From positions 37,176,801 through 37,240,800 of the forward strand of contig OX359247.1 of NCBI GenBank assembly GCA_947179485.1: a DNA stretch of 64,000 nt. Reading direction: 5' to 3'. Below the pieces are notes generated by a model. The model was not told the DNA's origin. It made no database searches and saw nothing but the letters and a program-made list of their open reading frames with translations. The translations under genes and the position numbers were made by a program. Every line of letters starts with the position of its first letter. Position 1 is the first letter of the stretch. This document shows positions 2,685 through 38,721 of the stretch, piece after piece. This stretch comes from Allacma fusca. Taxonomy: Eukaryota > Arthropoda > Collembola > Symphypleona > Sminthuridae.

Positions 2685-3764
2685 CTACGTATTTAGTCCC
2701 AACAACCATGGAATTATTTTGCTAGCCGGTAAAAATGCCAGTATGATAAGGCCAACTTGTTGAAAAACATCTCCTGTGTTTGGTAAACAAGCCTTCACCG
2801 TGACCCACTGGGGGATCCCTGGGATAGGGACATCTCTGCAGCTGGTGTCGGGCTGAGCGCAATGAACATCCACAAACGTGTATGGTGTTCCGGAAGTACC
2901 CCGAAATGTTATTTTACAGACGGAGTTCCTTTCCGCTTCGCAGCGACCATTGACGGGCGCGTATCTGAAGCGCTCTCCATACGTGACACAGACACATTGA
3001 CCATTATCCGAACATTCCTAGTTGCACCAAACTTATATGAATTGATGAGGAAATATTCCAAACAAATTATTTCTAACAATAAGTTAGGAATAAAATTCAA
3101 GAAATAAACGAACCAAACTCTCTGGGTTTTGCTTGTCACCGAAAATCCCATTGTTGTTGTAGCAAGCTCGTCTGATGTCACTGTGTAAAAAATGTTCCAC
3201 TCGGTATTTTCTAAATCCTTCTTCCAAATCCTTAAATGCCAGTTGGATATCTTCGGCTTTTTTGGCATAGTCAATTTTAGATCTGAAGGGGTAGTAAAAA
3301 TCCTGATTCATCACTTTCGTTCGAAATGGTTTACATGGGGAGCCTATGGAAGGAGACACAACTCGGCAACTACCTGAAGGAGTCGAGGTACTTAGATAGG
3401 GTTCTTCATTGCTGCATTCGCAACTTGGCTCCGACTGACCAGTGACTGCCCGGCATTGCAAATACCTGTACTTTTCGGGTGCATTTTGCGTGGGGTCTGC
3501 GTGAGTGTAGGAAAAACAAGATTTGGATTCTAAACCAGGAGTTTGATTTAGATGTAAGCTCAGGTTATTGAATCCCTGAATGAAAATCGTCCGGGTAATT
3601 GCTTGATACATTGGCACCAGGTAAGTATTGTATAAGTCCAGGTCACATGGTTGACCCTTGGTGGCTCCGTTTATTTCGGGGAAGCTATTGCAGGAAATAT
3701 TATTTACAAAGAAGAAAATCGTCAAACATACTATTAAAATCAATCTAGTACACATTGTGATCAT
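2685..3764 (-). CDS. Secreted cysteine-rich protein, family member A (unknown function)
   Basis: Two exons, 3764-3114 and 3017-2685, joined in phase 0 (TTG|GTTCGT donor, CAACTAG acceptor), give about 327 residues. An N-terminal hydrophobic signal (about residues 1-25) leads into a body with the family signature: GxPCDLxLYxxY near residue 37, LESKSCF, C-x-CSNEEPYxS, IGSPC and DIRRACYN. Exon 2 opens with ECS-x3-CxC and carries a second cysteine cluster. The last 25 or so residues are hydrophobic, as in a GPI signal or a membrane anchor. N-linked sites (NLS, NQT) support a secretory route. The nearest neighbours at 4294-5573 and 10233-11523 are paralogues with the same intron phase and position. 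I do not recognise a named domain. Extracellular or surface-anchored location is inferred; function is unknown. Confidence 0.82.
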
Positions 3765-3793
3765 TTGTTAGGAATATAGAATGCACGTGACAG

Positions 3794-3802
3794 TTTTATA
3801 TA
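3794..3802 (-). promoter_or_regulatory. Candidate TATA box of secreted protein A
   Basis: On the minus strand this reads TATATAAAA, about 30-38 bp upstream of the start codon at 3764. That would put transcription start close to the ATG with a very short leader. No experimental evidence; AT-rich sequence makes chance occurrence possible. Confidence 0.35.
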
Positions 3803-4293
3803 TGTATGGCAATGCACAAGTTGAAAGTTGCAATAATATTGTAGAGTCATTGGTTAGTTCATGTTTTCTGCCAATAATAATTCCTTTGAATATAAAAAAA
3901 TGCCCTAAAAAACCTGGAAAATGAGCCGAAATAATATACAAGGTATGTTTATACAGTAAATAATATTATTTAAAAATTCTGTACCCATTTTTATTACAGT
4001 ATGACAACTTGGAAAGTAATTTTGTTCGATTTTTTTTATAGAAAGTAAGCCGTTGGAGTATACAACTACTGACAATGAGCGATCTAGTTTTACATTTTTT
4101 GGTAATCTTATTTTTTTTTAAATGTCCCATATACTGCCTATTGTATGTTGTTTGACCTGTATATCAAAGCATAGTATAATTCAGGAAGCTAATTTAAATT
4201 ATAGGGTAATAAGTGCAAAGGTGCATTCGTTTTACATTCATAAGCTTTATTGCACACAATTATGAACTGGTTTTGAAGTAAGTGCAATAATAA
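3803..4293. other. Spacer between paralogues A and B
   Basis: About 490 bp of AT-rich DNA between the start of copy A and the end of copy B. Apart from the possible promoter of A, nothing is recognised; it should hold the 3' untranslated region of copy B. Confidence 0.5.
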
Positions 4294-5573
4294 TTATTTT
4301 TCAATATAATAGTTACTCAGATCATTTTGTTGACAACCTGCTAGCACTGAGACAAATTTGTACAGGAATAGGGTGAGAAGGTAGAGCTGAATAGGAGCAG
4401 GTCCCAAGGCTGTGGTCTTATTATCGTCAAAGCCGTTGCTGCCGCAAATCATTACCGTCATATCTTTATGAAGCCTTGTTTTGAAATGTCTGCACCCTGA
4501 AGGGACTGAACAATTCACATAGGACACTATAGTTTTTGTAGCTTTAAAAACACAAATAGCATTCTTTTTAGCAATGCACTCGGGAGTCGTTGCATTGTTT
4601 GCGAAATATCCGAACCTCGGACCGTAATTCACACATTGACACTCACCAGCCGGCGAACATTCCTGTGCCGAATAGGAAACGAACGAGGATTTATGGATTA
4701 ATTTACTTTTGAATATTTTTCTTTGATTAGTATATTCCCTTTGACGTTCTGGACAGGTAGAGTACAAACTATGTTTGGTAGGAGTACGCTCATAAATCAG
4801 CCAGGGACATAACATAGTATAGCATGGGATGGAATGAAAGGTATTACCAAGTTTTCTGCATTAAAAAAGTCATCGACGTGGTTGAAACAGGCCTGTCTTC
4901 TGTCACTCTCCAAAGAATCATCTTCCAAGAATTTCTTTACTCCTTCTACTAACTTATTCCATGCTATCAGGAAATGTTCCCTTGTTCTCGCGTCGTTAAT
5001 CGCTGTCCGGAATGCCGTGTAAAATCTCTGGTTAACGAGAACGCTTCGAGAGCGCCTACATTTTGAACCTATAGTTGGTTTGTCAATTATGCATGCTTTC
5101 CCGTTTGATTTGGGATCTACTGTACTCTTGTAGGGCTCCTCATCATTGCAAATACATTTGTTAGTGGCTGAGTCACATTTCAAAAATTGTAACTTCCCAA
5201 GCTTATTGTTTTTATCTGGTGGGATACGGGTAAAGCAGGATTTGGATTCGAGTGCCGGGTTTTCTTTGAGATGCTCTAGAAACAATTGCATTTTGTCTAC
5301 AAATTCCGTTCGGCTCCCTGCTTGATATAAGGCACGTAAGTAATTGGTGTACAGGGCAATGTCACAATCCTCCCCAACGGCTGCTCCCTCTACTTTGACC
5401 GTTATATATTGTCCAAGTATTTTATTGCTTCCCTGAGAGTCAACCAGTCTATTAAAATCTACTATGGAACCAGGTAGTTGCAAGTCAAGGAGCTCTTCTT
5501 CCGTTCGAGCATTCCAGGGAAGAGTTAAATAGCAAAAGTATAAAAATATATTAATTGCCAATGATGATGCCAT
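4294..5573 (-). CDS. Secreted cysteine-rich protein, family member B (unknown function)
   Basis: Exons 5573-4848 and 4662-4294 join in phase 0 (AACTTG|GTAATA donor, GGCACAG acceptor), giving about 364 residues. A signal peptide (about residues 1-22) is followed by an extra acidic N-terminal stretch absent from copy A. The shared core then begins (GEDCDIALYTNYLRALYQA, LESKSCF, CxCNDEEPYKS, IGSKC, RRQACFN). Exon 2 starts ECSPAGECQC, nearly identical to copy C and related to copy A, and has further paired cysteines. The end has a hydrophobic stretch (PIQLYLLTLFLYKFVSVL) followed by a polar tail, so a membrane helix rather than a clean GPI signal is possible. Same orientation and gene structure as its neighbours argue for tandem duplication. 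Function unknown. Confidence 0.82.
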
Positions 5574-5884
5574 ATTTAGTTGGTCCTCTTTACTGTAAAT
5601 TACTTCTTTCAGTTAAAATCTGGTTATAAGTTACACTACAAGTTGTAGTGTAAAGCAACCAACATCCCCGAGAACTGAGATGAATCGAGTGATATGTCGA
5701 TTTCCTTGAACGAGTTACGGTTTTTTTAGAGGTAAATTCTGACACGGTTATGGTAACAATTAACTTTTCGACTCACTTGCCGTGGCCCACTTTAAAAAGA
5801 AGCAAGAGTCAAAAAGGACACTACTACCCGACTTTATTTTGGCCTTCTTGATTTGATTGAATTTAGGACGTAATTATATTTGAA
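5574..5884. other. Spacer upstream of paralogue B
   Basis: About 310 bp between the B start codon and the left end of the foldback element. It should contain the B promoter, but no convincing TATA/initiator pair was picked out. Confidence 0.45.
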
Positions 5885-5888
5885 CTAG

Positions 5889-8800
5889 CAATCAAGCCAT
5901 CCGCCGAGGCTTACAGGACGTCTGGCAGCAATTGAATTTTAATTTTAATAATAATTTAAATGCAACAATAATACAAATACCCATTAAAAATACAACCCTG
6001 TTGAGAAGTGAAATGGCATAGTTTTGCTACTGTGTAGCAGTGGTAATTGTTACTGCTGTTAATTTTATTTGAAGAAAGTGAATTTATTTTATTTAGCTAT
6101 TTTTGTCGTTTCTAAGTTATTTGACAATAGCAAAAGTATTGAATATTACTTTTATAATAATAATTGTAATGCAAGTACTATGAAATGTAGCATAGCAAGC
6201 GTATGTAAGTATTAGTGCATTGATCTGGTTAAGATGCAATGATGACTAACGCTTGTAACAGGATGCATTAAGACACGGAACTGTTAACATCTCAATAAAT
6301 ACTCTTGTTAATCTTTAGAATAGTAATTCTTGTATTCGGGCAAGTCAATTACTTAAATATATGTGCAATCAGTAACTTTCATAGTAAATCAAACTACATC
6401 GGGATGTTACTATTTATCAGTCACACACACCTCAACACAACCCCATTGTATGAAATACAAAATATAAATTCTATTTTTTACAGTAATTACACAGAATTAT
6501 TACATAAAATACATTTGCCCCATCTGTAGCCTATTTACGAAATTACCAAAATATTAAATAATTGATGTTTTTTTTACATTTTGTAAACAGCTATTTGTAG
6601 CAACATCATTACTGGAGTGGCTTTTACTGTTACAATAAACAAAAATCGTATGGATACTGGCATTGTAGCCCATCATCAACAATAAGAAGCTCATCCAATT
6701 TAAGCTAGCATCATTAGCTCATTCGTGGGTTAATATCGAATCAGCTATTTTTAAATTACGTTAGAATGCATCAGGGTGGCTTGATTTAAATCACGTTGAT
6801 TTAAATCGTGATTTAAATCAAGATTTAAATCACTTGATTTTTTTCAAATAAATCACTGATTTAAATCAATGTTGACCATTCAACTTTCGGGGTTAGGATA
6901 AATGTAATTTTACATCTCGAAACGTTGTAAAACGTGCAATTTTGTGTTTTTATGAATTTTGGTCATGAGACCATTTAGAATTTTGATAATTTTCAGGATA
7001 ATTTGGGTACGCAACCGTATTGATTATCTGTCATGCTGTCACAGTGCCATAAAATTTAGATATGAGTGAGTTTTGAAATATTGTATATTAATAGAGCCTC
7101 TGCTGGGGACAATTGTAATGCCCACAAAAGATTCCGTCTCGCTTTGGAATCCAGGAACAAAATTAAGTATCCCGATGTCATCCCGAAATAACACGGGACA
7201 ATATTTATGTCCCAAAATTGTCTTGTCCCTAACAGAAACTCAGTATCTACAGAAAACATCCCAACATCCAATCATTGTAAAAGAGTTTGCATTTTTTAAA
7301 TGCTGTACTCATTATACTATTTTAACTATATTCAATATTAACTATTTTATATTATTTATGCTTTATAAATTTTATACATAATTTAAATGTTGTACGGAGA
7401 GATATTCACATTTTAAACGGAATACAGTATATTCCCAATTTGCAAATAATTTTTCTGTCCCAACATACTCTACCATCTCGTCCCGAAGCACAAATATGTA
7501 CACGATGCACATTTTATGAAATGTGTATAGCGTTTGGCTTCAAAGACAAAACTCAATTCGAAATTGTTACAATTTACAAACAATTCTGTTAATGTTTGGA
7601 ATTGGCCTTTGACCAGCTTTTTATTTCATTAGGTAGTTAACTTTATTTTGTAAATTTCTCTCAATATATTTTCCTAATTGTTCAAGTATCATTAGTACCA
7701 ACAGTATACAATATTATTAGGAAAATTAAAATCCAAAGATTTGTACGGTAAATTTAATTGTATGATAAAATTTTGAATTTAAATCAGAAAATATTGATTT
7801 AAATCAAAAAAATCCGATTTAAATCAAATAAATCCGATTATTTTGATTTTTTTCAAAAAAATCAAAAAAATCAGCAACCCTGGAATGCATGTAGGACGGT
7901 AGACAAAAAAAAATTCAACGTTGATTTTAAGTTAATCTGATGTTGCGGGGTATAAATGTTTTTCAAAATAATTAAATGTTATGATAAATAAAGGTTACAC
8001 ATGGTACGTTTAAAAAGAGCAATAATGAACGAAACAATGCATCTCGGGTTCTACCGAATAATATATTATGTATACGTATGTTTGTGTTTGTGTGAATGCT
8101 AAACAAGTTACCAACATGCTTATATCTTGCATCTTGGAATTTTTATGGTTAATTAGAATAAACTACCACTTACTTATTATGCACGCCTTTGAATATTTAG
8201 TACATTGTGGCTTATATGACCAGTCATCATCTTTTAACCAGCACTATTAAATTCTAAATTTGGGTAAATCGTCCACCAATACATATTAGACATTAAATGA
8301 ATTAAACTGATGTAGCTGTCATGCGCTGATAGCGTTCTGGATGGTGCACAAATTTTTACCCGTTCGTGGTCCAAAAACAAGTGAAGTAATAGTCTAGAAC
8401 CTAAGTATGTTAACATTGTTTGTAAATAACCAGTTTTTGTAAGCCACTGTTGAATGTTTCATGTGCACGTTAACAAAATCTCCAACGAATAGCCTACACT
8501 TTCGTGCATATAGTTTACTGGCTCACATAACCAAATTAATAATTAGCCCACTCGATTTTAAAAATAATTCGACACTGGTGCTCACCTTTAGCGAGAGAGT
8601 CGCTGTAACGAATATATTTAAATTACACTGCAGTACTGAAAATAGTTAGAGCCTTTTTTGAAACAATATTAGAGACATAATGTTGAAACGCGTTTTTCCT
8701 AGAATCAAAGCGTTCATTCAAAAATATTGTGACCACGTCTAATAGTTTTAGTAAAGTTGTCCAGCATAATGCATATTAACTAATATAATTTCAAAACAAG

Positions 8801-10232: not shown

Positions 10233-11523
10233 TCAACTGGCGTCCTGGGGGGTTTGTTTTGTCATAATTACTGATATTACAGTAGCAAATATTGTTAAAG
10301 CAGTAGATGGCTCTGGGGTCGCCACACTACCCTTTGCTTGACCGGTGCCGCCACAAGAGGTAGCGCTGACTTTCGTGCCCTTTTTAAATAGTATTCCATT
10401 AATTTTCCCACAACCCATTTTTGGGCTCCTACAGATTGTATCCGAGAACACGAACATCCTATTATCTGATTGGTCATAGTCAGTATTCCTCTCTTCTGCT
10501 TCCAGCTTACAGATGGCTCCATGCTCCGCATAACATTTCCCTTGATAGTCGAGGTATTGCATTCGACTTGAACTATGCCATATGCACTGACACTTGCCCG
10601 CTGGTGAGCATTCCTGGTATTTGGAACAAGCAATATCACATTATTCTAAAAGTTACAAGGTTCCGTTTTAAAATATGTATAATTATACATACAAACGTTC
10701 ATGCATAACAAAACCACAATAAGTACTTCATATGTGCAAGCCCACTCACCAGATTCTCTTTGTTGAAATCAATAAATCGCCTGGGATTGTGATTTTTTAG
10801 ATTGAAGCACGCCAGTCGGATATCTCCAGGTATCGACAATGCGAAAATATAATTCGAAACACTTCGTATAAACACGTTGAGGGTATCAATGACGTGCTGA
10901 CTAGTTCTGGCTTGGTCTATTCCTTTTCTCATGTCATTGTAAAATAAGTCTTTAAGATATTCTGACCTGGAATGTAAACATGGAGTGCCTACTTCCGGTT
11001 CATCCATTTCACATTCTTGAGTGTATGTATCCACATGAGATTTGTAGGGCTCTTGTGTGCTGCAGTTGCACACATGTCCAGTTGACCCAGGCGCGGGATC
11101 AGCAACACAGTCCATGTATCGCACAACTGGTGTTTGGCCTACAAATTTGAATGTAAAACATGACAGAGGCTGTAATGCAGTGGCGTTGTTTGGCCAGTTA
11201 TTCGAATCGGAGATGTAGTTGACTAAATTCTCGTACATAATTAGAAAAGACTCTCGATCTATTGCTCTGTACATTGGAAGAATATATTCTTCATACAATT
11301 TAAGGTTACAAGGCTGGTTTAGATTTGCTCCATCTACGGTATAAAAACTAGGAAATTCAATTTGTCGCCCCACTGGAAGTACTGGAACTGTGTAGTCGAA
11401 ATTATAATTGAAGATTGAAAGATTCGTCGTTTTGATAAGGCTTGTATCTAAGGACTCTTCCATTCCGAAAGCTGTGGAAACTATAAGGACTACGGAAGTG
11501 ATTGCAACTGTAGCGCATTTCAT
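10233..11523 (-). CDS. Secreted cysteine-rich protein, family member C (unknown function)
   Basis: Exons 11523-10750 and 10613-10233, phase 0 (AATCTG|GTGAGT donor, ATACCAG acceptor), about 384 residues. A signal peptide is followed by about 60 extra residues, then the shared core (NQPCNLKLYEEYILPMYRAI, LSCFTF, CNCSTQEPYKS, VGTPC, DIRLACFN). Exon 2 begins ECSPAGKCQC, then has a cysteine-paired module and a C-terminal GPI-like end: a small-residue region (GGTGQAKGSV) before a short hydrophobic stretch. The frame of the upstream part of exon 2 is fixed by the intron: other frames through this stretch would lose the CxC motif conserved in all three copies. Expressed role unknown; a secreted or surface location is inferred. 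Confidence 0.82.
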
Positions 11524-11973
11524 GTTATCGGATGATTGAGAACTGATGAATGTTCCTCCGGATTATAGTATTCAGTAATATTTTTTAGTCAAAAAATATT
11601 TAGAAAACTGAGAACTACTTTAAGCAAATTATTACATACATAATAATGTCTTTTTATTCTTCATGTTTTTATTCCATGCGGGAATAATACTCACACAGAG
11701 AGTCTTAATTAATTGGACATCGTACTTTAGCATTACCTTAAAATGAATGCTAATAATATTGCTAATAGTGTCAAAATAAAACACATAGAATGTTAAGATC
11801 GAGTAAAGTACAATATTGCATCTAGCATCGTCGCTAAAAATTATAATCGTAAGTTGAACTGAATAATAATAATAATTGTTGAAAGTCAAAAAAAGCAATA
11901 ACAAAAATTTTTTGCTCTTAAAATTGTTATTCCTTGTTACCATATAATTTTGTAACGTAATCCATTTTAAAAC
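11524..11973. other. Spacer between paralogue C and the ZDHHC17 gene
   Basis: About 450 bp, AT-rich. The frame at 11632-11943 is low complexity and not supported. AATAAA-like signals on the minus strand near 11650-11675 could serve the palmitoyltransferase gene. Confidence 0.5.
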
Positions 11974-14570
11974 CTACTTTATATTTGTATTTAATATGTA
12001 TCTATACTTCCAGTCAACTCTATCTTGAGGGCTTATATTGTTCCAGAAGTCAATTTCAATAAAATTGAACATATTTCTCAAAATGCCCTCATTGAATGGT
12101 GAGACATTTGAGGGGTAGCTAGAGTATAATTCTTGGTGGTAGCGTTTCCAGTTTAGACGCTCATTGGTAGTCATGCCCAACCATACTATCTGAATAGGTT
12201 TTAATGAATGAAATAAATCTTAGTTTCCCTTCAATAAAAATGTAAGAAATATGTCGGAAATTCCAACTTGAGATTTTACTTGATAAATTTGAAGGAGCAG
12301 AAGAACCAGAGTAATGACAGCCATAATGAATACCCAGGTTGCAAAGTAACTCAAGCAAGTATTCTGTAGGCAGTTGGACAAAAATCCGTTCACTTCGGGA
12401 GAGTTTTTTGTCTCCAAGTGAGACACTACACCTGATAGGTAGATTAAGCAAGATAGTACGTCTCCAGTTAAGAACAACATAAAAGATTTATGATTTTTCC
12501 ATCCAATGCAGTTTCGCATCCAAGGGCAATGGTGATCGTGCCTGGAATTCAAAAATAAAACTGTCTCAGGCAAGGATTCAGGATGTAAGAAAAAAAACTT
12601 TTAATAGCTCATTATTAACTATACCTGGCCACGCATTTATTACAATGCACACAATGTTTAGATCTCAAAGGCTTCCTCAAGAGACATGTCGAGCACCAGT
12701 GGCGATCATTCAGATTACCTTGTTGACACAGCTCAATAATTTGCTGGAAAAAATAATTAGCTGTCAGGTTGTCATCAATATGCAGAAAAAAACATTAACA
12801 GTCATCTCGTTCATCGTAATGGACCTCATTTCTGATCCTGTCGGAAACTTTGCAATACCCAGGGTCTGACTTCGAAGACAAGAAAAATCCGACCCAGGCA
12901 ATCAGAGATGCTAACACAAAGTAAGCCGAAATGGAAGTTTGAGTACTTACCCAAAAAAACCAAGTCCAATTCATAAGAATCTACACAAATGAAGTAATAC
13001 AATAGTTGTTTATGTGCAAAATGTATGGGATTTAATAGATTACGAAAATACATACTTTTAAACTTAAATAAAAGCTGAGTGGGATGATACGATTAAATTC
13101 GTCTTCCCCGACGTTTTTCAAGGATTTATTCACTACAAAAATGCACAAGCAAAGGAGCAACACTTTGACCCAATACGAAGCTTCCGACTGCAGAATTTGA
13201 CCTGGCCAGGTAAGCAGAAGGAAGGGAAGTAGAAAAATTGGCCAGGAATATACACGCACCTGTTATGAATTTGTATCTCAAAAATAGGAACAAATCTCCA
13301 AAAATATTATTTAAAATAAGCTTTGGAACTGGTTCAATAAACAAAGACTTATATACGCTCAGATAAGAAGTAAATCGGAGAGACGGCTAGCTATAGGTAA
13401 ATAATTACTAAAAATAATAATACTGTCTAGAGCAGCGCTTCTCTATTAGTTCTTATCCGAAAATAAAATCTAAAAATTTAATAAATTGTTCCGTATCAAA
13501 ATACCTTTCGAAACTTTTTAATCCTCTCGTACAAAACGCCCCTTCGTTTCCCAGTCCTGATTATAGCTAGACGCACCAGCTCTTGATCCGCTTGAAACCA
13601 AAACCTATCATCTTGTAATAACAACTGTAACGGACTTTCCCTTTCATAGTTTTCATCTAAAATATTTGCTCCATTTTTTAGCAGTAATTTTACAACAGCT
13701 CTGTTTTTACTCCTGATTGCCCCGTGTAAAGCATTATTCCCTCCAATGAAATCTTTGTTATGAGTGGTTGCTCCAAACTGCAATAGAGCCCTTGTGGAGT
13801 CATCCCTGTTTCCAATTTGATTTTGTTCATGGTGGTAATTCAGCATTGGATTCATGTTGTATGAACTGTTAATGAAATTAACTTACCCTAAAATCCCTGA
13901 CGCATAAATCAGTGGAGTCTTTCCCTCCAAATCTACTGAGTCTCTGGGGTAGTTCTTGGCGAGTAAATAAGTTATTATTAAAGCGTTCCCCCGGGCTGCA
14001 CTCAGGTGCAAGCAGTTTAGGCCAAAGTTGTTCCTTTTCATAGGATTTGCAAGCTGTCTTAAAAGCAGAGCCACAATTCGTAGATGCCCGCACTGACATG
14101 CAATGTGAAGCGGTGTAAAACCGTCTGAACCACTCGGGTAATCTATTATAGCACCTTTCCGGATTAGGAGCTCACAGATATCAGGACGATTCGTCCGAGC
14201 TGCGTGATACAGTAATGAGTGCTTATATTTTTCTGCCTCAATGTGGTTGATATTCAGGCGTTGACTCAGCAGCTTCATACATTCATCCAAGTTACCGTTC
14301 TGGAAACGTAAGAAAGGATGTTCGTGTGATTTTCTCGTGTCTGTCATAATTTTTAGCTGGAATTAAACTTCAATAGCTTACTGGTTGTTTTGCTAAGAAA
14401 TTATATGCAATTACCAGAACCGCCTGCTTGAGTTGAAAAAATTTACTTTCATCAAAGTCTGTAGTCAATTCCTTATAATTTTTGTTTTGATTTAAGCTTG
14501 GTCCAAATTGAGCAGGAGCAGATTCGTGGTTTATTTGGCATTGATTTCCTTCTTCTGTTTTCGGATCCAT
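11974..14570 (-). CDS. ZDHHC17: Palmitoyltransferase ZDHHC17/HIP14 type
   Basis: Eight exons (14570-14415, 14356-13887, 13805-13505, 13259-13056, 12980-12825, 12743-12625, 12541-12280, 12189-11974) join without breaking frame to 627 residues, close to the 632 of the human protein. Order: polar N-terminus; ankyrin repeats (about residues 55-290; e.g. [37 protein letters not shown]); two membrane helices; the SDPG motif; then the zinc-binding DHHC domain [32 protein letters not shown]; two more helices; the family motif [10 protein letters not shown]; and a C-terminal domain. It transfers palmitate from acyl-CoA to cysteines of substrate proteins at Golgi and vesicle membranes, recruiting them through the ankyrin groove. 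The catalytic DHHC cysteine and the zinc cysteines are present. Divergent upstream neighbour is the carbonic-anhydrase-like gene. Confidence 0.93.
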
Positions 14571-16864: not shown

Positions 16865-19800
16865 ATGTCGAGAATAAAGTACGAGAAACTACTTCTGGTG
16901 CTCTTTCTGAGCTGCTTCGTAGCGGAGCAGACACATCAAATAGACCAAACCAAGGAGGAAGGTATAGGCAAGTGTTTTACTTCAAGTACTTCCAAGGAGA
17001 AGTTCCGATAATTTTCTCCAAAGATAGAAATTACTGAATTAAGATGATTTGAAAACTTCAATCAGAGGCATCCAAAATAATAATTTATCTAAACCAGTTT
17101 TTTCAACCAGTTGGAGGCAAGTCCGGGACACTCGGAGATAAAGACACACAATCAGCTGTACAGTACCCTGCTGATGATGGAATAATAAAAAATGTTGGCC
17201 CTGACGGCAGAATCGTGTTTTCCAGAGCAGCTGCACATAAATCATCGTCAAACACGAAAGAGGCGACCAATTTTACGCTTCATTTCTTGGGGGGCACTCC
17301 CAGAGTACTAGACTACACACCGGAGTTCAGCAGTAAATATACCCCATTTTTGATTTTAGGTTTTGGTTTACAGAATACAAATTACAGTTAAGAATTTGCT
17401 TAAATGTGGACCTCATATTTTAGAGTGGAATACATGGCCTACAAATTATCCTTTATGTGATCCCACAACAAATCCGAACCTCTCACCGATCATAATAGAC
17501 ACCAAGGGAGCAACCCGAGACAAAACTACTCCAACACTCTTCGTTTACTCAGGCACTCCAATCACAGACTATACTCTTTCGACCGAATTCCATGGAGAAC
17601 CTGAATTCAACATGACTGCACGTATGCAGAAACAACTTTTACCCTATCCGTTGAGTTTAACATTACAGAATTAATAATTCGCTTCAAATTTATTTGGGAC
17701 AGTTAATTTAAATTAGTTTTTTATCTGTCGTGATTGCTCTTCGTAGGAAGACGACAATAGTTTTTTAATTAATTTTAGTTTGTTGGTTCATTATTGTATA
17801 GCGATTTATCATTTTTGATAAATCGGTCGTATGTAGAATATTTTTAGTAAGAAGATGATAGCAAATATGTGTATATATAGATACTAATACATGATTTACT
17901 TTTTTGAGTGCATGAAATTTGTAGTAACCATATCGTTGACGGGTGAAAGACACCACGAAGCCACCTATGTCACCGGCCTAGGGGACACCAGCTATCGATT
18001 CTTTGAGTACGCTCTGTTTCTGTTTAGCAGAAAGAATAAAAATCCCAGATTATCACTTCATCAAATTGACAATAAGATTTTCCCTATGGAAATTGTCATG
18101 TACTTCACAACGGGCAGAACTGAAGATGACACAACTCAAATTCATGTTATGGTCAACGTAATGAGTTTTTTATCCTTTACAAATGCAAAGCTAATTTTTT
18201 GGTCTGTGATGAAAATACAGTATTCACTGTTATGAACCACCTGAGTATTTTACATATAACCAAAATGTATTAAATACGTTGATGTTTTCACAGATCAGTG
18301 AAATAGAGAACCCATTGCTTGTGCCGGTGGTTAGAGCAGCAAAGATAATTGCAGATCGAGTGACAAACACAGATGCAAATAATATAAAAATAGATGCTCA
18401 ACAGTCTAAGATAGATGGAATGCAGGCGACGATCCTTGCAGATACAAAAGCACGGGAAGAGAAGGGATTTTATACATATGCTGCAAAGGTGACTAGCTTT
18501 TAGGGCATTTCCAATAGTGCATCGCATGGGTTCAGGTCGCACCCGGGTATTTGGGTTCAGGTCCAGGTTCATGTCTGGTTGTCCGTCATCACGATAAATG
18601 CCGAACCAATGACACCACACAATTCAAATTTTTAGAGTGACACGCTGCCTAATGTGTCAGAACCCTATTGATTTTGGAGACGATCAATCTTGTCTTCAGG
18701 AAATTAAAATAGGTCACGTTTAAATATATGCTAATTGCTAATACGTACTACTTATACTGGTTGTAGAGTCGGGCGGGATGAGATTTGGATTAAGATTTTC
18801 GTAAGAATCCATGTGAAAATTTGTATTTAGAGTATCGATTTGGATGTCGTTTCCGATTTAAAATTCTGCCAATAATTCTGAAATCCTGAGTTTTCATCAA
18901 TTCAGAATTCAATTTTAATTCGATTGTGATTTAGATTCAGAATTTAGCCTGCAATTTTGAGATTTCGTATTCGATTTGAATTTGGACTGCGATTTCGGCT
19001 TTTAGAATTCGGTTTAACTATTTTGTGCTGAGAATTCGCATGAGAATTTCGCTCTGTCAGTGTGGAAACTGACAAGAAACCGTCACTTTCACTGTCACTT
19101 TTACACACACACACACACACACAAACACAAACACTTTCCCCGGATAATGTTGAGGACTTCCACTGCTTTCCCCAGTCCTGCAAATTACAATAAAAAGGAT
19201 TAGTGAGAAAATGTAAACTCATTGTTTACATTTTCTCAATCCTTACCCTATACTAATGCCTAACCTACTTAAAACTAAAAATAGAAAAATGTAAAAGAAA
19301 AGATAAAAACTTACCATATGTACCTTCTGTGGAAATCCTGGACCCCTCCAAGGGTATAAAAAGGCGAGGGATTTCCACAGAAGGAACATTCTGTAATCCA
19401 CTGCCTTAGCGGTTGGTTCCGAGGTCTTTACCTCTGGCTCCTGGTTCCGGAGAATTCTCCTGGATTTCCGACCGAAAGGACGGTTTCTATTAGGTAATTT
19501 CTTACCTTCTCCCGCTCCTATACCACCAGACCTTTACCCAAACCTAACCACCAATCCCTGCCTACCCAGACCATCCAGCGCCAAGTTTAAAAACTTGGCA
19601 GCTTGGTTTCTTTGGCATTTTTTATTGCAGTTGTGATTTTTTTTTGGTCTTAAAATTAAAATTTAAAATTTTGAAAGTTTTTTTTGAAATTGTTTTGGTT
19701 TTGGGATAATTTTTATTAGGACCTTCCCGTACTACATAAGGTGATTTTTTTGGGACCTTTAAGTAAGTTTTTTTGAATATTTTGGGATTTTATTTTTTTA

Positions 19801-22288
19801 TTTAGTAAAAAGCCGGGTCTGGCAGGCATGGGCATTTACCCTACCGTATTTTATTTTTGCCTACCCTCCTTAAAAATAATAGACGTGCATCTGCCCTGGT
19901 AAAATTCAATAAAAGAGTGGATTTTTCCGAGCATTAGCTCCGGATAAAAATTCTACAAATAAAATAAGTGTTTTCCGGGCAATGCACATTTTCCGCGCGG
20001 AGCGCTGGAATAATTCCTAAGTCCCCAACCTGTTACTATGCCAGTTTGAATTTTGCTCTACCTACTCCCGATAATTTTGAGAACCCCCTTTTGTGAAATT
20101 TAAATTACAACACCCTTGCTCTACCACTCCAATAAATTAAAGAATTAAATTTCCAAAGTTTATTGAATTTTGCTCTACCACTCCAATTAATTCAATTAAT
20201 TAAATTCAAGTTTATTTTGATCAAATAAATTAAACGTATCCATTTTTAATAACCCTTTGAATTAAAACTTATGCACCCTCACACGCTCAACGGCATTACT
20301 CGGGCACGGCATTACAGAATGCATAGAAGAATAATTTAAAATGGCAGATGGGTTTTTGATTTCTTACTTTCTAACGTGCCATAATTTCATTGATTTCCCG
20401 GTAGCAGGAATATTAACTATTGAAATCTTCGTGGAAATCCAGTTTGAAGATTTCATGAAAGATCATTCAGATGATAATCATTCAATTATTACTTATTAAG
20501 GAGTGCATGAGTGGATAACATTTTAAACGTTTAAGTTCACCCGTTATTTTTCCCGTCACAAGCGAATTTCGACTGTGTCCGCCGACAATTTTTAGGTTGT
20601 ATTGCAGTACAGAGGGATACAGTAATAATAATTACTGTTGTATTATTATCCGAAAAGTATACATATAATTATACATAAATAGTATGATCTTGATTGTATG
20701 AAGGGAAAGTAGTAAGTGTCAGGAGTTCTGTATGGACAATAGCTATTTAACTGTTTACAGTTGAACGAGAACATTGAGAAGATACAAAAGTATGGACACG
20801 AAATTACGCGTATCAGAGAAGACCTTCAAAGTTTAGAGAATAAAAACGTGTCAATCCGCGAAAAAATCCAGAGATTGGAAAACTGTGTCAATAATAAAAC
20901 CGCCAGACAGAATGATTTAGGAGTGAGAATTAATGAGCTGCAATTAAAAGTGAGTAGTTCTGCTGGTACTATAAGCAGTGAGGAGTTAAGTCTCATAGAG
21001 AAAGAACTACTAACTCTCCAGGCGGATCTTGAAAGTGCCACCAATGTCCTATCAAAATGTTCAAAAAACCTTGAAAAAGAGCAAAATGAACTGAAGTCGA
21101 CATTAGACGAAATCCAATCTGCCCAAACTAAGTTAAATGATTGTGAAACAGCGCTGGCCAAAATTTGTGTAGATCTTGGCCTTCCAGAAAGAACGACTGT
21201 CTCAGAAGCTGAGGAGAAACACAGAAAGGCACAAAGTACGTTAGCAGATGAGGCGCAGGCAAAGGTGGGAAGACAAAGTATCAATTTTGTAAATAAATAT
21301 GTAGATTTGTACAGTATATTATGCAATAGTGTTTCCGTGCATTCTCCCGATAGACGTCAGTTGTCACATTTTTGGTAATGACTATTGTATGTCCATATTG
21401 GTAGAAGTTCTAATCATATTAATTGTGTAATGGCCATGTGTTGAACAGGCGGATGTTAATAAGGAAAAACAAGTACTCCAGCAATACAAAAATGAATTGA
21501 GTCTCGCATGTGATCTTGAAATTTTTCAAGTAAGATGTTGGTACTTTGCATATATAATATGATAATTACAAATAATAAATATATATAAATATTATAAATA
21601 TAAATAATAATAAGAGATATTGTTTGCATTTCATGCACACAATACATATGTATATATGGAAATTGATTTGCAAAATCAGCATTAATTACTATACGAAACC
21701 ATAACCATAACGTAGAATTTTACAGTTCAATCCTCAAATCAACAATCATCAAATGGGTTGTACTTAAATAAGTTGTCATTGTAGGTTTCCTGGCTTCTGC
21801 CCGCTTCCGGGGGCCACTACATCTACAACGGCTCATTACCAGGTTGACATTTAAATAATTACCTTTTTATTGAATCTGCTCAGGAGAAATTATAATCTAG
21901 CCCGGTGATCTTTCAGCATGTGACTTGTTTTTGTTGATCAGTTCCTCCATGCACTCGTAGGGGCTTCACTATTGTTATGGAACATACAGTGTCAATTTCT
22001 CAGGAGCAGTTTGATACCATTGCTGCTGTTGGGGATTTACCACCTTTCAAGCATATGAAGGAAAGCTTACCTGTACTGGCGGGGAGCGTTGGCCGGAAAG
22101 TTCGCTACAATAGAAAGAATCTTCAGTTCCTACTGGATGATGCAGTACATATGAAATCGAAGTTGAGGAAGAGGATAAAGGTCAAGATGCAGGATAACCA
22201 ATGCAACAGCTTGATCGGAAGTATTTTCCTGCTTGTGGCCAGTATTTTTAGCTTGATAATATTATTTCCTTGCCTTCGGCCTCAATAG
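16865..22288 (+). CDS. Inactive alpha-carbonic-anhydrase fold split by a coiled coil, membrane-anchored
   Basis: Nine exons (16865-16961, 17111-17332, 17388-17621, 17925-18157, 18294-18488, 20761-21264, 21449-21529, 21785-21842, 21942-22288) give 656 residues in one frame. Signal peptide (1-20); unassigned region to about 106; carbonic-anhydrase start (WPTNYPLCD, LSPIIIDT, YR-core) to NPLLVPVV near 268; about 235 residues of heptad-rich coiled coil (about 285-522); fold resumes at WLLP, Y-x-YNGSLPVPPC and SISQEQF; then GRKVRYNRK and a C-terminal membrane helix (about 632-652). The three zinc histidines are lost: HFHWG becomes ALFLF (A214, F216), ELHLVH becomes EIVMYF (V242). Thr199 of GSLTTPPC becomes V542. 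Cysteines 130 and 545 fit the disulfide of secreted family members. So it should not hydrate CO2; an extracellular scaffold or binding role is inferred. The third-exon acceptor (17387) is the least certain junction. Confidence 0.8.
19102..19132. repeat. AC microsatellite in intron 5
   Basis: A run of AC dinucleotides with a few A-rich interruptions inside the 2.27 kb fifth intron of the carbonic-anhydrase-like gene. Low functional content. Confidence 0.9.
19320..19387. other. Inverted repeat with TATA-like loop, intron 5
   Basis: Two arms of about 18 bp (TTCTGTGGAAATCC and its complement GGATTTCCACAGAA) enclose a 30-bp loop with GGGTATAAAAAGGCG. Downstream to about 19510 lie further small potential stems: GAGGT/ACCTC, the palindrome GGAGAATTCTCC and CCG/CGG closing a GAAA loop. 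This may be part of a degraded mobile element or a structured RNA. No match to a known RNA class was made. Confidence 0.45.
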
Positions 22289-29101: not shown

Positions 29102-30500
29102 ATGTCTGGAAAAATAACAGTATCTGCTCCTGGAAAGGTTATTCTTCATGGAGAGCATGCTGTAGTGCATTTTAAGAAGGCCATTGCGGTCAGTGTTGGC
29201 TTGTACACTACTGTGGAGGTCCAACCGTTGAATTCGGACAGAGTTACTTTCCAGTTTCCAGCTATTGCACTTGATGTTTCCTTGAGTTTTGATCATATTC
29301 GGGAGTTACAAGCCAGTGTCGGAATTGATTACAGGTGGGTGATATACGAGCGTTAAAACATTATTAAATATTATTTCGGCAATAATTATTATAATAATTA
29401 TTATATTTGTTTTATTTATCACAGATATTCTCGTCTGGATGCCCACAAGAAGATTCCTCTGGAGCCTGCATCTGTAGCAGTAATTCAAGATTTTGTTAAA
29501 ACCATGAACTTGATTCCTCCGAGTTCAGAAGCCGCAGGAGCACAGGCTAAGGCCGCTGAGGCTTTTCTTGGCCTTTATTTAGCCATATTTGAAGAACCTA
29601 CTGCGCTGTTGTTTAATTGCCAAACGGAGTTACCGGTCGGAGCAGGGCTTGGAAGTTCTGCGTCATTTGCTGCTTCCCTTGTGGGAGGAATGCTTCAAAT
29701 TTCTGGAAAGATATCTGAGGATTTTTCTTTGGGGGATCTGGAAAAGGTCCGTAGGCACGCTGATTCAAATTTACAAATTGTCAAATAAATTATTGTTAAA
29801 TAATAGAATTACTGGATTAATTAATAGATCAACCGCTGGGCATTCTTCAGTGAGAAGTTTGTACACGGTTCCCCAAGTGGAATTGATAACCACGTCACTA
29901 CTTACGGTGGAGCAGTGGTTTTCCAGCGAGGAGAAGGTGGCAAAGAAGAAACTACTGAGAATATCATCTGTCCCGAAATCCGAGCATTGCTTGTTAATAC
30001 TAAAGTGGCCAGGTCAACCAGTGCTATTATACAAAAAGTAATGTGAATTTGTTTTTCTCAAAGTGTGTTTGTATTTCTCAAGTAAACTAACCTAACAATA
30101 ATTTCACTATTTGAACTTTCAGACAAACCAACTAAGACAGGAAAATCTCGAGAAGTGGCAGAAAATAATGGATGATATTGGAACTCTTGTAGAACAGGCT
30201 GTAGAAGGATTTCGAAAAAATTCTGTGCAAGCAGAATTAATTCAGAAGAACCACGAACTTCTCCAGCAACTAGGAGTTTCTCATCCAGCTCTGGATAAAA
30301 TTATTGACTTAGCTCAACTATTTGGTTACTCGGGCAAACTCACTGGTGCTGGCGGCGGGGGTTGTGCTTTTATTTATATTCCAGATAGCACTTCTCAAAA
30401 ATCGGAAGAATCTTTAAATAGCCTTAAAAATTCTTTGACAGAAGCTGGATTTTTGTTCTGGGACACAAAGTTAGGGAGCCGGGGTGTTCGTTCTCTGTAA
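29102..30500 (+). CDS. MVK: Mevalonate kinase
   Basis: Four exons (29102-29334, 29425-29746, 29828-30037, 30123-30500) give 380 residues, near the usual 390. It phosphorylates mevalonate to 5-phosphomevalonate with ATP in the isoprenoid pathway, which in arthropods feeds juvenile hormone, ubiquinone, dolichol and prenylation rather than sterols. Visible GHMP-kinase motifs: PGKVILHGEHAVV near residue 9; the ATP-binding loop PVGAGLGSSASFA in exon 2; HGSPSGIDNHVTTYGG in exon 3, containing the catalytic aspartate; and KLTGAGGGGCAF near residue 350. ATG 29102 is set by the motif spacing. Introns are phase 2, 0 and 0. It faces the D-amino-acid oxidase gene tail to tail with 267 bp between. Confidence 0.95.
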
Positions 30501-34265: not shown

Positions 34266-36723
34266 GAATCTAATATTTTTAACATTTTCACTTCTGTGGG
34301 TTAGGGTCGGGGAAACGAAGATTTTACTGCAAGCCGTCAATATATTAGACAAAATCTTAAACACTGTTCATAGTCAATTATCTGTTTAGTGAATCCATTG
34401 AACTCAATTTTGTTAGCGTATTCTGTACTAGTCTACGTCTAAAAAAGGCATATTACTGGCATGTATACATATCAATATTATTATTTGCATAAAAGTCATT
34501 TGTGACAAAGCCACTGAACCATTTCCGTTGACTGCTCCGAAACAAGTGAATTTTGTCTCCGATTACAAAAATATAAATTTCCCAGTATGCCATTATTGTA
34601 GATAACATACATATCTATACAATATGCCAACTCACTGATTTATTGTCTGTATTAGTAATACTACGGGGAAATCGCGTTCTAATTTGATCATTGATAGTAA
34701 AGAATTACTTGGCACTAGCCCCAATAAATATTAGATTTCCAAGTTTATGAATGGATATACATAGAATCTGACTTGGGTTTCCCCAAATAAAAACAAAGTA
34801 TGTATAGTACTGCATGCGCATATAATTTTGCATAGTTATAACCATAATACTTAAGTGCACTCAAGCTCACTACGAAATTGAGAACAGATTCAAAAAAATG
34901 CATATTTAATAAATCTTCCCTAGAATAGTCTGATAATGCTGCGGGTGGATATCGTATCAACTAAATGTCCATATTATAGTAATTATCAGAGCTCAGTACT
35001 AAATTACCTTCCGATCTGAATCATCCTGTGAGAGTTCAGTTTACCTACCCTGAAAAATGTGAGTCAAATATTGAGCTCAAATGTGTTATTGACAAGTCAC
35101 AACAACCTCTGAATTATTTCTGAACTCGTGTAAGCACTTCTGCAAAGAACCATTGTCTATGATGTATCAACCTCATCAATCATAGCATGAATGTCTACCT
35201 AGGCACTGAATAAAGTAACATCCGTGAGTGTAACCAAAATAATGCAGTAATTTCAGAATGTGAATCAGTGTCTTGAATTAGTCACTCAACAAATACTCAA
35301 GCCTCCATTCGAGTCTATTCCAATCGAGTGGGAAATATCTAGAGGAAGCCCTAACACAGCTGATACAAATTATTGTTTATTTGTTCAGGGAGGAGCGCTT
35401 TATCGTCTTTGATAGTTAAACAAATAGAAAGGCAGTTAAGTGTGGTATTGGGAGAGCTTTCAGTTTTCCTCAACTCAGCCAATCACTAGATACAAATTAT
35501 CTTGGTCTCCTCAAAACCTTTTATTACAATGCAAATTTGAAGATCTGCCAGTGCTTCGGAGTTTCAATGAATTTTCAGTGTCTAATATAAACTAAAAAAT
35601 TGCCCTGCAATTTTATGCCACAATAGTTCCTCACAGTAAGGGGTCATATGGTCACACTATAATTCATTACACCTAGCATTACTACACTCTCTAGTCTCCG
35701 TATTTTACTTCCTCAATAATTTGGGGGGTCATAAGGTGACAGGGAGCATACTCTTGTTCAATTGCGCAATGTTTACAAATTATACTGATTGTAAAGAATG
35801 TTTTCTTTCTCAAGTCCAGAATTTCCTGAAAACAGTCGGACAGCTCTGTTAGAATCGAAGAATGTTTTCGCTTTTTATTTCCGCATCCGTCCCAACGTTT
35901 CACAGAGTAGAGTGCCCCATGCAAGCTCACAATCAGTCGGGATTCGCCACACTGACGATTTGAGAGCAAAAAAAGTGAAAATTGACGATCGTAGTGTAGC
36001 CCCACAAAGCTGTTACTAGCCCATAGTTCATTGCTGTGTCTCTATTCAATATTTTTTTGTGACTGGACTATTGTAATAAACTAGACATAATTTCCCCTTA
36101 AAGTTTGTTTTCATAAATAGTTGACTACAGCGATATTAGCAACACTTTAGGTATTGTGTGCTCGTAATGATCCAGGGAATTAGAACATCCGATACGGGTA
36201 AATGCATTTGTAGTAGTAATTCACAGCGTGTGTCTGTAACTACCTAGATGTTGTGTACTTAGGTCTGTGACCACAAGGATTGACGCTCCATTGTGTGATG
36301 GGACAGAAGAGGTACAATGCTGAAGATAACAGCAGTCAGTCGTCACCCAATTACAGTAACGACGGCACTCACAATAGTGACAATGCATATTGAGACTGCG
36401 AGCTACACTTGACATATTTGTATACATATACATGTAATTACATATGTACTCCCTAAGTTCTTACTGGTTAGAGATATGTTGGCTCAAGAATCTTCTGAAG
36501 GCGAAGTAATTAAGTCACTGTGTGATAAGATTATGACAATATATGACGCATGGGTTTTCTGTAAAAATGTCGGATAGGGTTTCAAGGGAAGGATTTCTGC
36601 TGTTATGAGGGAAGGTGCATTTTTTCTCACTTGTTGACAAAATGTTTTTGTATCAAAAGAAACTAGTTAAATACGGAAGCCTAATAAAGGACTAGTAGAG
36701 TGGTATTTGAATGAATTTTAATA
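34266..36723. other. Intergenic, no gene recognised
   Basis: About 2.5 kb. The frames at 34745-34960 and 35691-36019 lie on opposite strands or in different frames with no shared domain or exon signals, and are judged chance. The promoter of the ionotropic receptor should lie near the right end. Confidence 0.5.
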
Positions 36724-38721
36724 ATGTTCTATATCCTAATTGTCCTAGCATCCCTTCCTCCGGTATTTACTGTTCAGCAAAAAGTTTCAACTCTGTCTCT
36801 GTATTTTAATAGAAGTTGGAAGTCTCAAGGAGTGGAGGAGACTCCTTTTGTGGAGCTACCTGCCTCTCCTCTACTTGGCTCTTGTGCAACGGCAGTAGTT
36901 TTCGGGAGATTTGCTCTTCTGAACAACTTCCCTGTTCTACTATTTAATAAAATACCAAATCCAAAATCCATTGAAAATGTTCGTTTGGAAGTTCGAAGGA
37001 AATTAAATTGTTTTAACTTCATTGTTGAAAGGATGAGACTCAGATTGTATGAGTACAAAGTTCGTAGTAATGTTTTCCAACCTCGGATTGACAGAGAAAC
37101 TGTGATTAGTTTGGATGAGAGGGTTACAATGGTTAGGGCCGGTACTATGGACACTTTGATGCGCTCAAGCATATTATCCATTTTGGATGGGAAGCGCCTT
37201 GAAATATCCGGAAACCATTTCCCTCCGTACGTGTATTCCAAGTTAATAGATGGGGTTAGACAGTTCGGTGGTGCGAATTACCAGATAGTGAATAGTGCGT
37301 CGAGCAAACTTAACTTCACGTTCTATTTGGACGCCCCGATGGGGAAGCCAACGGGGTCCCTACTCCCAAACGGGACTTGGACAGGTTTGTTCGGAGATGT
37401 TTTCTATAAAAAATCGGATTTAGCCATTGTTTTGGCACACACAGTGGATAGAAACGGACTTATTGATTTTACGACGTCCTTCGGAGCTGCTAATTTAATA
37501 TTTTCGACGGCATTCCCTAAAGTTAGTCTTAAGCCCGAGGCTATTGTGTACTCCTATGACTACCTCGTTTGGTCTCTGATATTTGTAACAATTTCGGCTA
37601 TGATACCTGCGGTATATTTTAGCTTGCGGAGATTGCCTGGAAACTGCAAGAAAGACTGGAAAGGCTCCCTCATTAGATCTTGTACGATGATCTACAAAAT
37701 GACGTTGGAACAGTGCGCGGAGATACCGCCGGGATTGGAGATCCTGGCGGGGATGTATCTCATGTTTATAATTATTATAGGCACTGGCTATAAAAGTAAT
37801 TTACTGGCTTCGCTCTCTTTCCCTGAAGCGGGGAAGATTCCCAGAAGTTTTCCAGACTTGGCTACCAATACCAATTATGACGTTCACTTTGACATGAGTG
37901 GGATTGCGGGCTATAACTACTTCATGCAAGGGGATTCCCCGATGTTAGTCAATCTCCGAACAAGATTTGCCCCCAATTTAGTCCGGAATAACCCGGCTAA
38001 ATGTGCAGCCGCATCTTTCCTCGATCCCTCTACTGTTTGCATAGGCTGGGACACAGTTCTGAACCAAGCTATAGGGAAGAACTTGACGTTAATGAGGGGC
38101 CTCAAGCCGGTGTACTTAGCTCAGGAAGCCATAACCAGGACTTGGGTAACCATTGGGTTACAGAAGAACTCACAGTACACTGCAGCGTTTAATTATATTT
38201 CATCGTCGTACTTCGAAACTGGGCATATAACCAAGTGGCATAAGGATATTGTTGAGGATTTCATTGTGGGTGGGATCCCTTGGATGAAGTCTCAAAAAGA
38301 TTCACAAACATACAAAGCACTGATAAAACTTGCCGGAAGTAAAACTAAGACAGTACATGCTCTGAAACTCAACAATGTTTACATTATATTCCTTGCGCTT
38401 ACTTTCGGGGTTATTATTGCTACTTTGACCTTTGCCTTTGAAATGGGTAGCTCTCAGTCCAGTAAGAGTAAAAATTTCAAAGGGAAGTTACACCTTTGGA
38501 AAACTGTAGCAATTTTGGGACTGGGGCAGAAACAGCATAACCCTTTGGAGATGCAAGAAAAAGAAATATTTGAAAAGGACGCTGCTCGAATGGAAGAACT
38601 CAAGCAGCATTACATTTTCGACTTTTCAAATTACACTAACAACTATGAACCTGAGTTGTCAAAGGCTGTTGATTATAATAGAGGGGATGAGTTCAAGGTG
38701 TTGTATTTGAGTAAAGAATAA
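36724..38721 (+). CDS. Divergent ionotropic receptor (IR family), intronless
   Basis: A single uninterrupted frame of 665 residues. A short signal peptide leads to an N-terminal region, then the ligand-binding S1 lobe with FPPYVYS and NGTWTGLFGDV. Membrane helix 1 is near 278-301 (YDYLVWSLIFVTISAMIPAVYF) and a pore/second helix near 335-360 (GLEILAGMYLMFIIIIGTGYKSNLLASL). The S2 lobe follows, then helix 3 near 551-573 (VYIIFLALTFGVIIATLTFAFE) and a cytosolic tail of about 90 residues. This is the layout of ionotropic glutamate receptors adapted in arthropods for chemosensing as ligand-gated cation channels. The canonical glutamate-binding residues are not evident, as in divergent IRs. The SYTANLAASL-like motif reads GYKSNLLASL. 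It has no co-receptor signature (IR8a/25a). Lack of introns suggests a retroposed or lineage-expanded divergent clade. Confidence 0.88.
   Translation: MFYILIVLASLPPVFTVQQKVSTLSLYFNRSWKSQGVEETPFVELPASPLLGSCATAVVFGRFALLNNFPVLLFNKIPNPKSIENVRLEVRRKLNCFNFIVERMRLRLYEYKVRSNVFQPRIDRETVISLDERVTMVRAGTMDTLMRSSILSILDGKRLEISGNHFPPYVYSKLIDGVRQFGGANYQIVNSASSKLNFTFYLDAPMGKPTGSLLPNGTWTGLFGDVFYKKSDLAIVLAHTVDRNGLIDFTTSFGAANLIFSTAFPKVSLKPEAIVYSYDYLVWSLIFVTISAMIPAVYFSLRRLPGNCKKDWKGSLIRSCTMIYKMTLEQCAEIPPGLEILAGMYLMFIIIIGTGYKSNLLASLSFPEAGKIPRSFPDLATNTNYDVHFDMSGIAGYNYFMQGDSPMLVNLRTRFAPNLVRNNPAKCAAASFLDPSTVCIGWDTVLNQAIGKNLTLMRGLKPVYLAQEAITRTWVTIGLQKNSQYTAAFNYISSSYFETGHITKWHKDIVEDFIVGGIPWMKSQKDSQTYKALIKLAGSKTKTVHALKLNNVYIIFLALTFGVIIATLTFAFEMGSSQSSKSKNFKGKLHLWKTVAILGLGQKQHNPLEMQEKEIFEKDAARMEELKQHYIFDFSNYTNNYEPELSKAVDYNRGDEFKVLYLSKE

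Follow-up and report, generated by a model that had tools for sequence, protein, structure and literature searches.

How can the fold of an alpha-carbonic anhydrase (CA) be divided by a long coiled coil, and what kind of protein would result? The question is raised by a gene of the springtail Allacma fusca, found in a window of 64,000 nucleotides (positions 37,176,801-37,240,800, assigned to contig C10, chromosome 3 of assembly qeAllFusc8.1; PMC10427803; this and all other papers are cited from excerpts of their text). The gene has nine exons at 16865-22288 on the plus strand, a span of 5424 bp that shortens to 4190 bp without the solo long terminal repeat (LTR) in its fifth intron. We find a CA domain that is interrupted by a coiled coil of about 220 residues and has lost its zinc site, and we lean, with modest confidence, toward a secreted, surface-anchored, dead CA domain that serves as the base of a coiled-coil hairpin.

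A sequence-only reading had placed nine in-frame exons at these coordinates and on this strand, which exon joining and a splice-site check bear out: all nine exons fuse in frame, their reading frames are all open, and the introns end in AG in 8 of 8 cases and start with GT in 7 of 8. Intron 1 is GC-AG in the better reading, with exon 1 ending at 16967, not 16961; we prefer it because the length of P0001, a deposited A. fusca protein, is matched there with one residue different (G/V at 33). The model then has 646 residues (644 with the GT donor), not the 656 given before. Residue numbers below refer to the 644-residue version unless stated (add 2 for the 646-residue version), and P0001 is numbered separately. 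The layout of P0001 (622 residues) is identical to that of the nine-exon model: removing one 24-residue stretch from the 646-residue version gives 622 residues, and four positions differ from P0001. According to the A. fusca genome note, annotation was still to come (PMC10427803), and the excerpts of a second A. fusca paper make no mention of annotation, RNA-seq or BRAKER. The lengths of exons 5, 6 and 7 are divisible by three, and introns 4 to 7 all have phase 0. That exons 1-9 form one gene also holds up, since P0001 has the same join and no in-frame Met occurs between residue 295 (exon 5) and residue 544 (exon 9) of the 646-residue model. The parts of the gene are as follows.

16865..16967, plus strand: exon 1, start codon and signal-peptide-like start (MSRIKYEKLLLVLFLSCFVAEQ), followed by the GC-AG intron; the alternative GT donor ends it at 16961
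17111..17332, plus strand: exon 2, N-terminal extension of unknown kind, no Pfam match
17424..17621, plus strand: exon 3, start of the CA domain (WNTWPTNYPLC..SPIIID), with one Cys of the pair
17925..18157, plus strand: exon 4, CA core at the expected zinc-ligand site (FLFSRKN, EIVMYF), no His
18294..18488, plus strand: exon 5, final helix of the N-terminal CA part (ENPLLVPVVRAAKII) leading into the insert, phase 0-0
19055..20283, no strand assigned: solo LTR in intron 5, 1229 bp, TG..CA, with a 5-bp target duplication (CGCTC) at 19050-19054 and 20284-20288
20761..21264, plus strand: exon 6, main coiled coil, 168 residues (504 nt), phase 0-0, no Met
20950..21021, plus strand: 72-nt in-frame stretch within exon 6 with intron signals (GTGAGT...TACTAACTCTCCAG), absent from P0001
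21449..21529, plus strand: exon 7, end of the coiled coil, 27 residues (81 nt), phase 0-0
21785..21842, plus strand: exon 8, where the CA sequence restarts (VSWLLPASGGHYIYNGSLP)
21942..22288, plus strand: exon 9, end of the CA sequence (VPPCTRRGF...SISQEQF) with the second Cys, a basic stretch, a hydrophobic C-terminus (membrane helix or glycosylphosphatidylinositol (GPI) signal) and the stop

We consider first whether the two parts belong to one domain. The Pfam profile PF00194 matches the whole model with an E value of 6.2e-14 (52.6 bits, curated cut-off 27 bits), and when the insert is removed, as had been proposed, the N- and C-terminal parts are matched as a single stretch (109-318 of the joined protein, E=1.9e-12, 47.8 bits). 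With a hidden Markov model (HMM) built from 24 relatives of the coil protein, the N-terminal part stops at profile position 191 and the C-terminal part begins at 206; the full score rises from 37.9 bits in two domains when split to 49.0 bits when joined (48.3 as one domain), and with the insert in place the two pieces score 9.7 and 25.7 bits. This test is not fully independent, because the relatives were found by a profile that included the joined protein. Cys 118 and Cys 533 align with a Cys pair of which both members are present in 19 of 25 relatives. Extracellular CAs carry this pair as a disulfide, and if Cys 118 and Cys 533 form it, exon 3 is tied to exon 9 across the insert. The placement of the split at the loop before WLLP is upheld, and colinear single-domain scoring together with the kept Cys pair supports, if only indirectly, the view that exons 8-9 would complete the CA fold.

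How large and of what kind is the insert? The stretch from the N of NPLLVPVV to WLLP measures 257 residues in the model (233 in P0001). In L031, a sister paralogue, this loop is 39 residues long, and in two paralogues with the zinc His retained it has 34 and 32. The coil protein thus exceeds a normal loop by 218-225 residues (about 220), near the 235 residues first stated, and the claim that this insert is a coiled coil stands. Over residues 266-508, 28-residue windows hold on average 5.21 of 8 hydrophobic residues at heptad positions a and d, compared to 4.21 (standard deviation 0.20) in shuffled sequences, and the power at a period of 3.5 residues is 30.0, compared to 10.2 (standard deviation 3.1); on both measures 0 of 1000 shuffles reach the observed value. 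One heptad register runs from about 315 to 379 and another from about 386 to 454, with Leu at 9 of 10 'a' positions of residues 391-454 and Ile at the tenth. VSSSAGT sits between the two registers, a further break (GLPERTT) follows at 455-461, and glycine makes up 2.5% of the insert. With the 72-nt stretch kept, the lengths on either side of VSSSAGT, from 266 to 508, are about 114 and 121 residues, and such near-equal outgoing and returning parts suit a hairpin rooted in one body. Compared with solved structures, the coil gives eight weak matches (best E=0.0012), mostly to other coiled coils, and every NCBIfam and Pfam match in it is below cut-off. We infer that the coil may take the form of a hairpin, which could act as a rigid arm.

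Like the Cys pair across the insert, the phase-0 coil exons open to in-frame skipping, the 72-nt stretch and the unsplit sister, the loss of the zinc site went unnoticed in the sequence-only reading; it becomes apparent when residues are compared with 25 relatives, hand-picked from 95 others found by profile search. The three zinc positions are His in 24, 25 and 24 of the 25 relatives and Leu, Ser and Val in P0001. Likewise, the active-site Glu, kept in 25 of 25, is Leu in P0001 (L219), and Pro (P507) and Val (V508) stand in place of the two Thr of GSLTT, both of which are conserved in 24 of 25. In human CA2, the active-site Thr is Thr199. P0001 retains 18 of the 38 columns that are near-invariant among the 25 relatives. 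A second alignment shifts the residues at the first two zinc positions; the FLFSRKN segment has no His by either alignment, and EIVMYF of the coil protein has none. Because the zinc His, the Glu and both Thr are replaced, the coil protein is on this evidence a relative of CAs and not a CA enzyme, that is, a putatively catalytically dead alpha-CA-like protein.

Both ends of the protein are hydrophobic. The N-terminal one resembles a signal peptide, and the C-terminal segment has a 19-residue mean hydropathy of 2.79; together they suggest a protein of the secretory path or the cell surface, and we take the surface as its probable location. The tether to the membrane proposed earlier survives as a hydrophobic C-terminal anchor, and its identification as a membrane helix may have to give way to a GPI anchor. 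The hydrophobic tail has a basic stretch, KSKLRKRIKVK, on its outer side and is followed by only a few residues. By the positive-inside rule, such a placement is unusual for a membrane helix, and the basic stretch together with the short end makes a GPI signal a slightly better guess than a membrane helix.

Exon 6 contains a detail that bears on the shape of the arm. P0001 is without the 24 residues encoded by 20950-21021, and this 72-nt stretch, itself open in frame, carries intron signals: GTGAGT as donor, TACTAAC and an acceptor AG. As a background we use the 72-mers of the window (n=125,282; plus strand outside the model exons, minus strand unfiltered). An open frame is present in 25% of them; 6.1% combine it with no fewer hydrophobic a/d residues (4 of 7), and in 1.2% Pro and Cys are absent as well. 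Being open, heptad-compatible and equipped with intron signals, the stretch looks both coding and spliceable and in this sense exitron-like (the term as in PMC10985678).

Where did the insert come from? Our searches for copies used the A. fusca assembly itself (392,743,791 bases). The sister paralogue L031 lies on contig C12 (chromosome 4) at about 27,724,400-27,725,200 (about 6602-7932 within L031, in reverse-complement coordinates) and is a second dead alpha-CA gene, whose zinc His read by eye as S, C and N. It has WLLP, PVPPC and the phase-0 intron before the helix in common with the coil gene, at 30% identity, and its 39-residue loop lies in a single exon and has no coiled coil. In a tree of 25 rows (four Allacma genes and 21 relatives; P0084 and L041 left out) the coil gene pairs with L031 with support 99/99. 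The coil protein does not group with the only named carbonic anhydrase-related protein (CARP) in that tree, P0089, in a setting of long branches and with L041 outside it; L041, elsewhere in the Allacma genome, seems from its motifs to be a CA10/11-like gene. In the simplest history, a CA gene that was dead before its duplication would have acquired coiled-coil exons in the loop of one of its two copies.

Exon 6 finds only itself in the genome, the other 7 of 8 matches having E values of 0.416 or worse, and we therefore reject the idea that the insert was copied from another gene of the genome. No second insert-bearing copy appears among the ten genome matches listed, all of which are the coil gene itself. 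A genome search with PF00194 gives 42 matches, of which 19 cover the C-terminal part; 15 of these 19 start at or before profile position 148 and leave no room for an insert, and at the other four loci we see by eye no coil-like open reading frame (ORF) of at least 90 residues, the loop of L041 being only partly traced. The coil gene itself is missing from the 42, so that this search can miss divergent copies. Among proteins, a search with the whole model returns P0001 only (best 7994 candidates scored), and one with the C-terminal part (322 candidates) returns P0001 and P0002. The latter is a protein of 809 residues that by eye seems to contain three consecutive CA segments, with PVPPC again present in the first of them. 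A profile search (7047 candidates) returns 96 proteins. The spacing of the loop motifs over 97 proteins (96 rows) is measurable in 78 and spans 63-83 residues; the first motif is absent from 18, including P0001, for which alignment gives a spacing of 272 residues (E230 to Y502).

The solo LTR is a further candidate source. It has at least 47 matches in the genome (best 40 of 1265 candidates scored), with at least 8 pairs 8.7 kb apart, as expected for the ends of a full element. Since it lies wholly within intron 5 and has its own target duplication, we reject it as the carrier of the insert. The longest contig for P0001 is listed as 5050 bp, shorter than the 5424-bp gene and longer than the 4190 bp without the LTR, so that copy is probably without the LTR, its protein unchanged.

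Taken together, these data suggest how the protein might be built and used. A single gene would give a secreted, surface-anchored, catalytically dead alpha-CA-like protein, in which the two CA halves would fold as a single body and the coiled coil of about 220 residues would grow from the loop after the NPLLVPVV helix. With both its ends fixed to the same CA body, the coil would be expected to double back into a hairpin, an arm of 15-17 nm by a very rough estimate that assumes sides of about 115 residues each. The body without zinc ligands would form the base near the membrane, and body and arm might bind partners at the cell surface or in cuticle or matrix; by analogy with other dead CA domains, the body would bind or anchor and the arm would extend its reach or cluster it.

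Several observations weigh against this account. The N-terminal part alone is a weak CA match by the relatives' HMM (11.2-12.2 bits, compared to 28.5-28.6 bits for the C-terminal part), and the best solved-structure match of the joined protein (PTPR zeta, E=1.3e-5) covers the C-terminal part only (query 274-316). Heptads fall to the shuffle level near both ends of the insert, where windows from 280, 287, 441, 448, 455 and 469 score 3-4 of 8, and a search for an antiparallel register gives several near-equal peaks, none of which stands out. Two sequons lie in the coil; one of them, N344, occupies an 'a' position of the core, where a glycan would be incompatible with burial. Splicing out the 72-nt stretch, as in P0001, would also remove VSSSAGT, the most obvious turn. 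L031 and the coil gene pair through two long branches (1.68 and 4.44), and their pairing may reflect attraction between these. Finally, the protein searches found no insert-bearing relative in another species; no springtail besides Allacma is among the named profile-search matches, and the search therefore says little on other springtails.

How do other explanations compare with the hairpin on a dead CA body? The most serious is that the coil forms an intermolecular bundle, a dimer or trimer for which the insert is an oligomerisation device. Heptads suit a coiled coil of any order, and without the 72-nt stretch the first helix could pass 379 into the Leu-heptad region with no obvious turn midway. 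Both ends are tied to one CA body, however, which would call for an even number of passes, and with the stretch kept the parts around VSSSAGT are of similar length (about 114 and 121 residues). No single antiparallel register stands out to decide the matter, and we regard the bundle as rather unlikely. Alternatively, the coil could be an optional cassette, with exons 6 and 7 usually skipped and, as the main product, a dead CA that is not split and whose loop is somewhat lengthened. Both exons are symmetric in phase 0, skipping both keeps the frame, and the loop left behind would measure 62 residues, compared to 39 in the sister and 32-34 in the two zinc-His paralogues. P0001 nevertheless includes both exons, minus the 72-nt stretch, and the long heptad run in exon 6 suggests selection on the coil, which makes this option improbable in our view.

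Two further explanations would remove the puzzle altogether, one by dividing the gene and the other by restoring the enzyme. Two neighbouring genes, or a CA remnant and unrelated coiled-coil exons, might have been joined wrongly in the model, a reading to which intron 5 lends some weight, being the longest of the gene (2272 nt) and the one that contains the solo LTR. Yet CA motifs occur on both sides of the insert in the correct order, exons 6-8 have no Met, so that a second gene would have to begin with an exon not seen here, all frames are open, and P0001 has the same join in a copy that is probably without the LTR; on the lack of Met and the P0001 join in particular, we judge such an artefact to be highly improbable. 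That the coil protein is an active CA with displaced ligands has its membership of PF00194 in its favor, but no His is at hand in the FLFSRKN segment or EIVMYF, and with zinc His, Glu and both Thr all replaced in P0001 we reject this reading, to which we give almost no credence. The hairpin on a dead CA body thus remains the account toward which we lean. A bolder version of it, in which a dead CA body with a hairpin is a surface part of new design, phase-0 exons were inserted in the loop after duplication of a dead CA, and splicing of the 72-nt stretch switches the length or hinge of the arm, is an attractive possibility that we hold only tentatively.

How new is this layout? The sequence-only reading knew of no described protein like it, a claim that fails for interrupted CAs in general and holds, within our limited searches, only for the coiled coil. 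In molluscan nacrein, the alpha-CA is separated by a Gly-X-Asn or acidic repeat (PMC4066178), a repeat that another paper places in the C-terminal region (PMC6639325). Nacrein and the coil protein are alike as secreted alpha-CA domains interrupted by a foreign segment (PMC4066178), a likeness drawn apart from the insertion sites. In contrast to the coil protein, with its coiled-coil insert, its lack of a zinc site and its anchor-like tail, nacrein has all three zinc His, retains some CA activity and is interrupted by a low-complexity repeat. Toxoplasma TgCA_RP is a GPI-anchored CA relative that is predicted to be inactive, with Gln254 and Thr414 (PMC5437132). By these numbers its third ligand and the Thr lie 160 residues apart, which exceeds the distance in human CA2 (from His119 to the Thr199 noted above) by about 80, so an insert seems present there as well; it is smaller and of unknown kind, with two of three ligands changed, in a protist parasite (PMC5437132).

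Other relatives have lost catalysis without being split. With a PF00194 match and no zinc His, the coil protein is CARP-like, and like CA8, CA10 and CA11 it has a dead CA fold; CA10 and CA11 are secreted and have a binding role (PMC8024894, PMC6609565), CA10 binding neurexins, and end in a tail of roughly 25 residues that contains a single Cys (PMC8024894). The excerpts on these proteins mention no large insert. The CA domains of the receptor tyrosine phosphatases PTP gamma and zeta bind contactins and, like the proposed body here, are extracellular, membrane-tethered and partner-binding (PMC10815196); unlike it, they are continuous and belong to receptors that carry a phosphatase. It is by such analogies that a binding role seems plausible for body and arm. 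The open literature, which lacks most subscription papers, yielded no CA with an inserted coiled coil, and judged by titles it yielded no paper on a springtail CA. An interrupted CA was already known, and a coiled coil as the insert appears, within these limited searches, to be new and well supported as sequence.

The rest of the window holds features unrelated to the coil gene. On the minus strand, adjoining ORFs at 3084-5612 and 10233-11562 resemble related secreted Cys-rich proteins (three ORFs of this type, tested against Pfam, give no match), and ankyrin repeats and a DHHC palmitoyltransferase domain lie on adjoining ORFs at 12220-14362, perhaps as one gene. Parts of a GHMP kinase at 29357-30500 are followed by a 668-codon open frame at 36715-38721 with ligand-gated channel matches, ionotropic-receptor-like; the kinase we take, from its PVGAGLGSSASF motif, to be perhaps a mevalonate kinase. 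Tandem arrays occupy 43912-44284 and 56605-56935, with units of 135 bp and 32 bp (the latter also read as 64 and 127). Rfam gives no match in the 64,000 nucleotides.

What would such a gene mean? The alpha-CA is among the best-studied folds, and a natural case with about 220 residues added to one loop would reveal how much this fold tolerates after catalysis is lost; the coil gene would mark a CA loop as open to the grafting of a coiled-coil arm. Together, the insert-free sister and the phase-0 exons would offer a before-and-after view of domain insertion in an animal gene. The importance of the finding would be local rather than general unless the arm has a defined partner, and the layout hints at the reuse of an old enzyme fold for a structural or binding purpose.

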